Shown here piece after piece: positions 25,801 through 49,750 of a stretch of DNA of 64,000 bases (the first letter of the stretch is position 1; every line of letters starts with the position of its first letter). The notes under the pieces were generated by a model. That model made no database searches. It saw only the letters and a list, made by a program, of their open reading frames with translations, and was not told the DNA's origin. Made by a program: the position numbers and the translations under genes. The stretch comes from an uncultured Acetobacteraceae bacterium. Its GTDB lineage: Bacteria; Pseudomonadota; Alphaproteobacteria; Acetobacterales; Acetobacteraceae. The stretch spans positions 37,112 to 101,111 of the forward strand of contig CALMVO010000077.1 of the NCBI GenBank assembly GCA_937873205.1, written 5' to 3'.

Positions 25801-26265
25801 CCAGCAGGCGGGGGTAAGCGTGCTCATCTGGCCGAATGGCTAGAGCGTGATCCGATCGCATAGGCTCACGGATCACCCTCTAGCTTATTGTTTTAACGAG
25901 CATCTTTATCCGATCAAACGATTCCGTTCGATCGGATGATGCTCTAGGGCAGGCTGAACCGACCAACTGATATTGCCGATCTAAATCCGCATCGAGGGGT
26001 ACTGCGCGTTATTTTGTAGGTCCGCTTGGGGTCGGAAACGGCGGTAGGAGGGCGAGTAGCCAACTACCGCTGTAAGTGGTGGTTTGCGGGAACATCGCGA
26101 CGTCGAAAGCCGAGCGGCTTGGTGGTGACTTCCCGGTCAGCTCGATGACACGATGTGGACAGTCTCTCGCACGCCCCACCTCGTATGATGTCTGGCTTAG
26201 GGTCGCCTGTCGCAATAGCTTCCCCGGCTGGGACCTAGCCGCCGGGAAGGGTGGATAGCTGCCCT
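25801..26265. other. Intergenic stretch holding MITE-like copy 1 and a GTCCGCTT repeat
   Basis: No gene seen in 465 bases. It contains the two-hairpin element at 25841-25946 and GTCCGCTTGGGGTCGG at 26020-26035. The stretch 26040-26260 shows no convincing frame. Confidence 0.5.
25841..25946. repeat. MITE-like two-hairpin element, copy 1 (106 bp)
   Basis: Stem 1: TAGAGCGTGATCCG (25841-25854) with CGGATCACCCTCTA (25869-25882), 13 of 14 pairs. Stem 2: GAGCATC (25898-25904) with GATGCTC (25938-25944), and inside it CCGATC with GATCGG. CTAG occurs at both ends. A second, 107-bp copy at 48080-48186 is about 85-90% identical by eye, including the loops. Confidence 0.85.
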
Positions 26266-46438: not shown

Positions 46439-47168
46439 GAGCACCTAACGAAACCGGTTCCGGGGCGTTATGGGAGGCATGGCCAGACCTCTTGTTCCCG
46501 ACGATCTGTGGGCGGCGATCGCGTCGCTTTTGCCGCCTGAGGCGCCGAAGCCAAAAGGGGGCCGACCGCGCCTGTCGGACCGTGCGGCGCTGACCGGCAT
46601 CCTGTTCGTGCTGAAGTCCGGCCTGCCGTGGGAGATGCTGCCCGCCGAGATGAGGTGCGGCTCCGGCATGAGCTGCTGGCGACGCCTGCGCGACTGGCAC
46701 GAGGCAGGGGTATGGGCGGCCTTGCATCAGGTGCTGCTGGAGCGCCTGCACGCGGCAGGACAGCTCGACTGGCGCCGCGCCGCCCTGGACAGTGCGTCTG
46801 TGCAGGCAAAAAGGGGGGTGCGGCTACCGGACCAAACCCGACGGATCGCGGCAGGCCGGGAAGCAAGCGCCACATCGCGGTCGACGCCAGGGGCACGCCA
46901 CTTGGTGTGCTGATCGGTCCAGCCAACCAGCACGACAGCCGCATGCTGGCGCCGACGCTGGATGCCGTCCCCCCCGGTGAAGAGCGGAAGGCGCGGCCGA
47001 CCGCGACGACGGCCCGGCAAGCTGCACGCCGACAAGGGCTACGACGACCGGCGCTTCCGGCGCCTCAGCGTGCGCTACGAACGCCGCGCCGACACCCACC
47101 TGGCCTTCAACATCCTCGGCTGCGCGCTCGTCTGCCTCAACCAGATCAGGCGGTTCTGTTAGGCGCTC
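46439..47168 (+). mobile_element. Degenerate IS5-family insertion sequence
   Basis: Imperfect terminal repeats: GAGCACCTAACGAAACCG at 46439 and CGGTTCTGTTAGGCGCTC ending at 47168 (reading inward GAGCGCCTAACAGAACCG). Length about 730 bp, shorter than a normal IS5 element, in line with an internal deletion. Flanks read ...CTAT before and TAAA after, so a TA duplication is possible but not clean. Confidence 0.8.
46470..47162 (+). pseudogene. IS5-family transposase, multiply broken
   Basis: Frame 1 from 46470 gives MARPLVPDDLWAAIASLLPPE, PWEMLPAEMRCGSGMSCWRRL and the first catalytic Asp in LDSASVQAKRG. After a frameshift near 46815 it continues GSKRHIAVDARGTPLG and ANQHDSRM (second Asp region). 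After another near 46970 it reads GKLHADKGYDDRRFRR, and the end DTHLAFNILGCALVCLNQIRRF. About 45 residues before LSVRYERR, including the Glu region, seem to be missing. It cannot be active. Confidence 0.85.
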
Positions 47169-47280: not shown

Positions 47281-48899
47281 ATGCCGTCCAAGAGCCTAAT
47301 CGTCTTTCGAACCCACTTCGTGGATCGGCGGCTGCTTGACCTCATCGAGTCGATCTGGACGGCACCCGACTACGAGGTGGTGGTCGCCGTCGACGAGGTC
47401 ATCGGCACGATCGACACCAAGGAGGCCCCCAAGCTTTCCATGACCGCAGTGCCGTTCGACGCACTCGGTCTCTATACCGAACTTTATGACATGCTCTGGC
47501 GGTGTGGCGACTACCTGCTCTACCTGGCGCGGCAGGCTTATCCGGGTGCCGCCAGCTACTGGCTGATCGAATACGACGTCGCCATCAACCGCCCTGATCC
47601 GGTCAGCTTCTTCCGCGATCACGACATCGTATCTCCGCATGATTTCCTATCCACCCATTTCCGCGAGCGCGAGCCGGGCTGGCGATGGGGTGATCCGATG
47701 CAGGGCGAGTATGCCGTGGTCTGGCGCTCCTACTTCCCGTTGGTCAGGCTATCGGGTCGGACGATCGGTTTCCTGCTGGAGCGCAGGGTGCTGGCCTTGA
47801 ACAGGATCAGGGCGATCGCTCCGCAGTTCAGGCCGGAATGGCCGAACGACGAGTCCTTCGTCGCCTGCGAGCTGCACTAAGACGGCTTCGAATGTGCCGA
47901 CTTCGCGATGCTAGGCGACTGCTACGACCGCACCACCTTCTTCAACGACGTACTAATCCATCCCGATGACCTACCGCCGCACGATGGCAAGATCTACCAC
48001 ATGGTCCGCTGGGGGGCGCACTACCTCAAGGGGATCCATCCGGGTCTGGATGCCAGCCGGCGACCGACCCTGCGTAACCTAGAGGATGATCCGATCGCTT
48101 AGGCTCACGGATCATCCTCTAGCTTGTTGTTTTGACGAGCATCTTTATCCGATCGAACGAGTCCGTTCGTTCGAATGATGCTCTAGTTGGCCTGACCGCG
48201 ACCGGCCTGTCCTTCCAGCAGATCATGCCGGTCCTGAAGGACCAGATCTTGTTCGCGCTGGGGTCGGACGGTGACACCCCAGAGCGGATCCTGGCGTCGG
48301 AAGGGCCGATCATGACGCTGCTGGCGGACGATCCATCGGCTCCAGTACTGCAGACGGTGGTGATGGCGCTGGCGCAGCTCCGCACGCGGCTGTCGATCGA
48401 CGCGCTGGCCCGGATCGCGGCACGGCGCGACTGGCCGGCGATCGAGCAGTTCTCCAATGTCGCCCAAGCCCGGCCGGCCTGGCAGAGTTCGATCAGCATG
48501 TGGTCAAAGCCACAGGACTACCGGCTGGACGCCGAGGGCGGCAACAACGGTCACCACGATATCGAATACAGTTTCCATACAGAACGCGGGCCCAACAACT
48601 ATTGGGCAGTGAACCTGCAGCAGCGCGTCCTTCTGACTGAAGTTAGGATCTACAACCGCCAGGCTTATGCTGAGCGCTTAAACGGCTTCCGCCTACTGGC
48701 TTAATTGGACGGTCAGGCCTGGCACCTCGTCTACCAGAGCCCCTCAGAGGCCGACCTAGCGCGAACCGTGGGGGAGCCGATCAGCATTCCGCTGTTCACG
48801 CCGGCTCGGCTGCTGCGGGTAGAGTCGCGGCAGGACGACTACTTTCACTTCCGCGAGCTCAAAGCCTACGGTACGCCGGTGCGGGACGGAATATCCTAG
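47281..48899 (+). pseudogene. Discoidin-domain (F5/8 type C-like) protein gene broken by two stops and a MITE-like insert
   Basis: ATG 47281 opens a frame of 199 residues (KSLIVFRTHFVDRRLLDLIE, YWLIEYDVAINRPDP) to TAA 47878-47880. The same frame then continues (DGFECADFAMLGDCYDRTTFF, KIYHMVRWGAHYLKG) to about 48079. There the 107-bp two-hairpin element lies. After it the reading resumes (GLTATGLSFQQIMPVLKDQ, LRTRLSIDALARIAARRDW), with a discoidin-like end NYWAVNLQQRVLLTEVRIYNR and NGFRLLA, stop TAA 48702-48704, then in frame DGQAWHLVYQSP and RVESRQDDYFHFRELKAYG to TAG. Removing 104 bases (one element plus one CTAG) joins both halves in one frame. The N-terminal half is unidentified; glycan-related context is inference. 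Confidence 0.7.
48080..48186. repeat. MITE-like two-hairpin element, copy 2 (107 bp)
   Basis: Stem 1: TAGAGGATGATCCG pairs perfectly with CGGATCATCCTCTA. Compared with copy 1, the pair at stem position 7 is A-T here and G-C there, a compensatory change. Stem 2: GAGCATC with GATGCTC around a CGAACGA/TCGTTCG inner stem. CTAG flanks both ends (48079-48082 and 48183-48186). Confidence 0.85.
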
Positions 48900-49750
48900 C
48901 CTCCAGGGTCGACCCTGGAAGCGGCTTCGGCCGCATCCAGGAACACGTTGATGTCGGGACTCAGCAGTAGGTGACTTATCCGGTCGACCTTCCAGTCCGG
49001 CCAATTCCACCATGCAATGGTTTCGAGACGTGTGATGGTCGCGTCATCGAATCGGTTGCGTATATGCCGAATCGGATTGCCGCCATAGATCGAGTAGGGG
49101 GGGATGTTGCCGCGCGCAACGGCGTTGGCCGCGATGACGGCCCCATTACCGATGCGGGTTCCAGCCAGTACCGTCACGCCGTACCCGATCCAGACGTCGT
49201 TGCCGACGTCGATGTTCGCGGCGACGACCTCATTGTGACCATTGTCCGTCCGTTGCGATGGCCAGCCAGCCCCACTTTGGAACGGATAGGTGCTGACGCA
49301 GTCAAGGCGATGATTGCCCAGGATGAACGTAACGTTCTCCGCGAGCGAGCAGTACCGCCCGATCGTCAGGCACGCACCTGGGTATGGACCGATCCGCGGC
49401 TGGCCGTACGTATGCTCGCCAACCGAGCCCCAAAACCAACCCTCGCCCCAGATCATCTGCGGCTGGAAATGACGCTTTATTCCCCAACCGACCAGATCAC
49501 GCAGTTGCGTAAAGATGCGCTCATAACTCGGTGAATCTGCCAGTGTCGGCAGTGCGGCGATCAGAGTGTCCATATCGATCGTGGGTAGAATTTCTGTCAG
49601 AACTTCCCCACCATCCGGTTGATGAGCCAGCCGACATAGCATGTCAACCGTCAGCGGCGGCTTTGTGGCTTCTAGGGCCGTGGGCATCATTTTAGGATCG
49701 TCATCAATAGCGATCCGATTTTGGGTCTGTTTGACAGTATTGTCTTCCAT
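48896..49750 (-). CDS. Left-handed beta-helix acetyltransferase (CatB/Vat-like)
   Basis: 284 residues. A helical N-terminal part (about 1-95) precedes hexapeptide repeats: LTIGRYCSLAENVTFILGNHRLDCVSTYPF (His and the TYPF loop typical of CatB/Vat types), then NIDVGNDVWIGYGVTVLAGTRIGNGAVIAANAVARGNIPPYSIYGGNPIRHIRNRF. Such enzymes acetylate drugs or polysaccharides from acetyl-CoA. The extra N-terminal region and the location in an island next to a dead sugar-related gene favour a surface-polysaccharide role over drug resistance; this is inference. Confidence 0.85.
   Translation of the reverse strand: MEDNTVKQTQNRIAIDDDPKMMPTALEATKPPLTVDMLCRLAHQPDGGEVLTEILPTIDMDTLIAALPTLADSPSYERIFTQLRDLVGWGIKRHFQPQMIWGEGWFWGSVGEHTYGQPRIGPYPGACLTIGRYCSLAENVTFILGNHRLDCVSTYPFQSGAGWPSQRTDNGHNEVVAANIDVGNDVWIGYGVTVLAGTRIGNGAVIAANAVARGNIPPYSIYGGNPIRHIRNRFDDATITRLETIAWWNWPDWKVDRISHLLLSPDINVFLDAAEAASRVDPGG

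Follow-up and report, generated by a model that had tools for sequence, protein, structure and literature searches.

REPIN/RAYT systems and BIMEs are short double hairpins that lie between genes, often close to gene ends. Rhizobium-specific intergenic mosaic elements (RIME1) were reportedly described by Osteras and colleagues in 1995 in Rhizobium and Sinorhizobium, again as intergenic repeats. The Bru-RS1 and Bru-RS2 repeats of Brucella are palindromic repeats of 103-105 bp whose ends are insertion points of IS711, an element with a YTAR target and a TA duplication (PMC2266754, PMC2267715). MITEPsy1 of Pseudomonas syringae is a 100-nt, non-autonomous, IS5-related and actively transposing element with a CTAG/YTAA target (PMC3189936), from which it follows that a 100-base element targeting CTAG can move in a bacterium. 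It has 18-bp terminal repeats, a 4-nt duplication, a low copy number and a likely autonomous relative, ISPsy2. For IS630, a TA duplication and a preference for CTAG are on record (Tenzen and Ohtsubo 1991, as cited in PMC2170065).

The window analysed here, a stretch of 64,000 nucleotides from the 3.73-Mb genome of an uncultured Acetobacteraceae bacterium (G000), contains two copies of a repeat that consists of CTAG, 100 bases in two hairpins and a second CTAG. With the CTAGs included, the copies span 48079-48186 (main type) and 25840-25947 (subfamily 2). An earlier note on this DNA had located them at 48080-48186 and 25841-25946; both copies were indeed present, but their edges had been drawn one base off. 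The features referred to below are:

46439..47168, plus strand: remnant of an IS5-family element (IS427-like, PF13340), its ends GAGCACCTAAC...GTTAGGCGCTC adjoining TA; only GAGC/TA is common with the element
47281..48078, plus strand: 5′ part of the host pseudogene, with a stop at 47878-47880; its homologues have a C-terminal F5/8 type C domain
48079..48082, no strand: left CTAG, in which TA (48080-48081) is the target duplication and the last G is the first base of the element, as judged from the base before TA and the empty site of copy L006
48079..48122, plus strand: hairpin 1, with 15 pairs and CTAG at both feet; 6 of the 15 pairs changed on both sides and 94% of cells paired
48082..48183, plus strand: mobile element proper, copy 1 (GAGGATGATCC...GATGCTC), with edges taken from the alignment of all copies and from empty sites
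48123..48136, plus strand: T-rich linker CTTGTTGTTTTGAC, better conserved than any other unpaired part and retained even in rhizobial relatives
48137..48183, plus strand: hairpin 2 (GAGCATC...GATGCTC), with a 3-base bulge
48183..48186, no strand: right CTAG, in which TA (48184-48185) repeats the duplicated TA and G48186 belongs to the target
48186..48899, plus strand: 3′ part of the host pseudogene, with a second extra stop at 48702-48704
25843..25944, plus strand: mobile element proper, copy 2, subfamily 2 (AGCGTGATCC / TTTTAACGAGC), with CTAG at 25840-25843 and at 25944-25947

Folding of both copies, on both strands, yielded the two hairpins with z-scores of -6 to -10, which none of 200 shuffles reached. 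CTAG was present at each end of each copy, as had been noted before, and the compensatory change described for stem 1 was recovered at alignment columns 8-37, where the copy at 48079 has A-T and the copy at 25840 has G-C (with a C.C mismatch in the adjoining pair of the latter copy). The terminal inverted repeats, GAGGATGATCCGATCG and GAGCATCATCCGATCG, match at 14 of 16 positions. No Rfam family matched within the window at the gathering threshold.

Searching the whole genome with a 31-base core pattern revealed at least 103 copies (52 forward and 51 reverse), a number far beyond chance, and none with the reversed pattern as control; a search by the ends of the element added roughly 15 further copies. 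The element is 102 bp long and non-coding, most copies being 95-99% identical and falling into at least four subfamilies defined by linked changes. At C72, C108 and C127, copies stand in tandem and recur every 104 bases, neighbours having one CTAG in common, and many contigs of the assembly start or stop within a copy. Four congeners and nine other Acetobacteraceae genera carry their own variants, typically 76-86% alike over nearly full copies, and the isolates with copies include Nguyenibacter vanlangensis and Gluconacetobacter sacchari. Among named genomes, exact core matches were found only in Acetobacteraceae or Rhodospirillales bins (Nguyenibacter, Gluconacetobacter, Acidomonas, Asaia).

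The element is mobile, as its appearance had suggested: besides more than 100 copies, there are empty sites in congeners and a precise target duplication. Empty sites were queried with joined flanks at six of sixteen prepared sites and then at five more. Copy L003 is missing, without a gap, from three homologous congener loci. Copy L006 lies at the ACC TAT of a cupin-like gene, which it interrupts, and the outgroup G029 retains ACC TAT at this position. Because the edges of L006 read CTAG on the left and CTAT on the right, and because the target CTAT is kept in G029, the duplication consists of TA (or CTA) and the left G belongs to the element. A duplication of the flank, as previously expected, therefore exists at this site, the one at which it was demonstrated and at which 2-base and 3-base versions are indistinguishable, but its length is not that of CTAG; a 4-base CTAG duplication is ruled out by L006 and by other copies with CTAA or CTAT. 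Alignment of about 100 copies revealed a C before the duplicated TA in 82 of 83 and a G after it in 88 of 93 (A or T in the other five), with no flanking consensus beyond C-TA-G. Short, non-coding, near-identical copies, terminal inverted repeats and a target duplication with empty sites are all traits of a MITE, a non-autonomous DNA transposon.

At 48079-48186, excising 104 bases (the 102-base element and the 2-base duplication) fuses the host frames as ...TLRNLVGLTATG..., just as the earlier note had it, and the uninterrupted homologue that it called for was found twice: in congener G004 (contig C24; 80% identity, gapless over the junction, ...TLRDLADLTATG...) and as a paralogue in the own genome (contig C30; 71%, without the element). 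The gene is thus truly interrupted by the element, but the insertion is not the sole cause of its breakage, since two additional in-frame stops (one in each part) mark it as a decaying pseudogene that was or became one for other reasons too. Directly downstream, an intact-looking gene lies convergent to the pseudogene at 48896-49750 on the minus strand and is, judged by eye, presumably of the hexapeptide acetyltransferase type.

The picture of a gene-interrupting element, although true of this copy, proved atypical of the family, in which about 59 of 100 copies lie at gene ends in the stop frame and about five interrupt genes. With codon usage learned from the genome's long open frames to call genes that read into the copies, we found the TAG of the terminal CTAG in the gene's stop-codon frame in 60 of 67 coding flanks (left 23 of 26, right 37 of 41), against a chance expectation of one third (binomial p ~1e-21). 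Among relatives, the same held for 16 of 16 flanks in G002, 8 of 8 in G004, 3 of 4 in G022 and 1 of 1 in G028, the first three amounting to 27 of 28, and G002 has five copies between convergent gene pairs that both end in CTAG. By copy, the 59 of 100 in the stop-codon frame compare with 15 of the 91 remaining CTAG sites in the sequence around the copies, a sample of their neighbourhood rather than of the genome as a whole (p ~1e-9). GTAC sites were discarded as a control because GTAC contains no stop codon. CTAG is scarce, with 34 occurrences in the 64-kb window where base composition (70% G+C) predicts about 175. The open literature searched contained no prior report of MITEs at CTAG stop codons.

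The best reading of these data is that most copies landed exactly in TAG stop codons, which were rebuilt so that the proteins remained unchanged; at L022, L045 and L094 the native stop was tested directly. Element-free orthologues in four congeners ended at the same codon in 4 of 4 cases at both L022 and L094; at L045 one did so, while the other three ran one codon further. Several of these orthologues close with TTCTAG or GACTAG. These end points make it very improbable that the stops are non-native, with the element truncating genes at internal CTA codons and frame 0 arising automatically. Truncation did occur at L006, where the sense codon in ACC TAT became the stop in ACC TAG, and probably at L095, and the frame-0 count includes these few genes; at L064, moreover, orthologues end 1 to 11 codons earlier, so that the stop there is at most possibly native. 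Beyond most stop-frame copies, however, no same-strand coding continues on the far side, and annotated rhizobial genes that end on a related repeat (see below) look complete. The same placement could also be read as function, the repeats being retained behind stops as 3′-end signals of the host, either terminators or mRNA-stabilising hairpins. The strong, conserved and covarying hairpins, the T-rich stretch after hairpin 1 and the enrichment at stops above free CTAG sites would all suit such a role, but genes enter the element from either end (23 frame-0 flanks on the left, 37 on the right) while a T-rich tail suits one orientation, and a terminator scan yielded no canonical terminator from hairpin 1. 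As element-free orthologues also end normally, copies vary among congeners and about five lie inside genes, we regard this role as unlikely. The stop-codon pattern would then stem from purifying selection together with target choice rather than from a benefit to the host.

The fold itself is conserved across species. A covariance model (R1) was built on 24 copies from Acetobacteraceae; of its 35 pairs, 13 covaried with changes on both sides, which none of 500 shuffles matched, in agreement with the earlier proposal of selection on the folded form; covariation in a DNA palindrome can also come from template switching, and by itself is no proof of an RNA role. Of 289 genomes sampled across the class, 24 had R1 matches; beyond the own genome these lay in about 19 other families. 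The matched elements, 94-139 bp long, mostly read TAGAGC-hairpin-linker-hairpin-GCTCTA and in several cases adjoined a long open frame ending exactly at the element edge. Rhizobial repeat copies aligned with R1 over positions 1-108 (E 2e-5 to 0.015); we take this repeat to be RIME1-like, on the basis of a working consensus present in 517 plasmid records. Since blastn of the element against plasmids gave no match, kinship with the rhizobial repeat is deduced from the covariance model and the common layout. The likeness extends to a length of about 104-108 bp, two palindromes, TAGAGC...GCTCTA ends, a T-rich TTGTTTT linker and the position of some copies on stops, whereas the primary sequence outside ends and linker is mostly different. 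In rhizobial plasmid annotations, most repeat copies overlap no gene, and in five of five inspected gene-overlapping copies the CDS, apparently complete, ends exactly on the terminal TAG of the repeat. RIME1 has been called Rhizobium-specific, in contrast to the family seen here in Acetobacteraceae and about 19 other alphaproteobacterial families.

The ends of the element had been likened in the earlier note to those of the nearby IS5-family remnant. GAGC and the adjoining TA are indeed common to both, but the likeness goes no further (GAGCACCTAACG versus GAGGATGATCCG / GAGCATCATTCG), and IS5-group ends likewise fail to match beyond the first 4-5 bases (GAGCACCTAACG versus GAGSATSATCCG). As to the mobilisation by an IS5-type transposase that the note considered plausible, the TA/CTAG targeting fits IS5 or IS630, but the remnant is at most a candidate for the partner, and the search of the genome yielded none. 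The transposase genes considered were of the IS5/IS427, IS630 and IS4/IS5 types (PF13340, PF13358 and PF01609 loci), and screening of the PF13340 and PF13358 loci for the ends of the element gave no match. Element ends outside the listed copies were considered as parts of a partner IS, and those fetched turned out to be further copies, contig-end fragments and one single-hairpin copy. Because the 155-contig assembly breaks at repeats, a multi-copy IS may be missing from it, and because no autonomous relative with matching ends was found in this genome, "MITE-like" is the safe label. Compared with MITEPsy1, the element has a duplication of 2-3 rather than 4 nt, more than 100 copies rather than a few, and no partner found in its genome.

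An enzyme that acts symmetrically, duplicates TA and chooses CTAG suggests a DDE transposase, either IS5/IS427-like or IS630-like, and we infer that the former is more likely. A CTAG/YTAR target with TA duplication fits the IS5/IS427 group and also IS630, and is hence not decisive. An IS630 (Tc1/mariner-type) transposase is a possibility to be held with some doubt. IS630 and the Tc1/mariner-like ISY100 duplicate TA as well, the CTAG preference of IS630 (Tenzen and Ohtsubo 1991, as cited in PMC2170065) speaks for it, and IS630-type DDE_3 genes are present in the genome; yet none of these loci has element-like ends, and the IS5-like elements of the same genome also use CTA/TA, one of them having the same first four bases, GAGC. 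A REPIN-like origin would instead involve a RAYT (Y1/HUH) enzyme and single-strand transposition with CTA as cleavage or target site and no target duplication, the left CTA of the target and the right CTA of the element together mimicking one. The two-hairpin form agrees with this, but the Y1_Tnp/RAYT domain (PF01797) was absent from the genome in a search that was positive in control genomes. The symmetric CTAG target with TA duplication sets the element apart from REPINs and BIMEs. The palindromic target, moreover, includes the base after the insertion (the predominant G), which a Y1 enzyme need not see, and we give such an origin hardly any credence.

We therefore consider it probable that the repeat is a non-autonomous, MITE-like element, one branch of a two-hairpin repeat family of alphaproteobacteria to which the RIME1-like repeat also belongs, and that it is moved in trans by a transposase that duplicates TA or CTA and chooses CTAG, its placement at stops being tolerated. 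The transposase would recognise the near-palindromic ends (GAGSATSATCCGATCG, in inverted orientation), and an autonomous partner IS would be expected to end in TAGAGCATNATCCG. Insertion would occur into the TA of CTAG, with TA (or CTA) duplicated, and because the element begins with G and ends with C, CTAG would be rebuilt on both sides. Where that CTAG is a C-TAG stop, the gene would retain both stop and protein, and the palindromic nature of CTAG would let this happen on either strand, even for convergent genes sharing one CTAG. Given that CTAG is rare in the genome and that every frame of the element is closed inside genes, copies would survive mainly at gene ends. More tentatively, one may think of these mobile double hairpins as an ancient family, spread throughout the alphaproteobacteria, that has stop codons as its main niche; with TA alone duplicated and G and C supplied by the element, TAG is rebuilt on both strands. 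The stop preference may exceed what selection accounts for; a preference for stops over other CTAG sites might then reflect coupling to translation termination or transcript ends. In this view a mobile element can occupy gene 3′ ends, even a CTAG shared by convergent genes, with no protein altered. The data offer a simple, testable rule for the harmless spread of short mobile repeats in alphaproteobacteria: choose a rare palindrome that is often the stop at genes, and restore it on insertion. They also tie a repeat family described as Rhizobium-specific to class-wide repeats, for which a covariance model can serve annotation, and they caution annotators that in many genes the final codon is formed by the first three bases at a mobile element's edge.

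Several further repeats were seen next to copies of the element. CTA precedes every copy of an IS5-like element with ends GGCTCAGGACTC (end GGCTCAGGACTCATTTTGGCAGCCAGAACGT), and three of the five copies seen lie inside the terminal CTAG of the two-hairpin element; the GGCTCAGGACTCATTTTGGCAGCCAGAACGT ends were found at L031, L039, L100, L020 and L120 (ends of contigs C61, C80, C122, C9 and C53, respectively). An IS abutting the CTAG of a short repeat mirrors the described relation of IS711 to Bru-RS. A second common flank, GACGCGGACCCATAAAGTTCTTGGAGCGAC, adjoins the CTAG at L066, L245 and L247 (ends of contigs C142, C32 and C57) and is probably the terminus of a different IS, the rest of which is missing where the contigs break. 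The single-hairpin copy, a 50-bp form reading CTAG-hairpin 2-CTAG, stands alone at L252:1521-1571 (C107:14421-14470) and may have arisen by deletion or may represent a simpler mobile unit. Finally, a different, terminator-like repeat (GGGTCCAGGGCRGAGCCCTGGCCTTC, about 55 bp) is dispersed over more than 30 places in the genome, is present in all congeners and sometimes adjoins copies of the element, with examples at C56:9236-9299 and C8:1733-1791.
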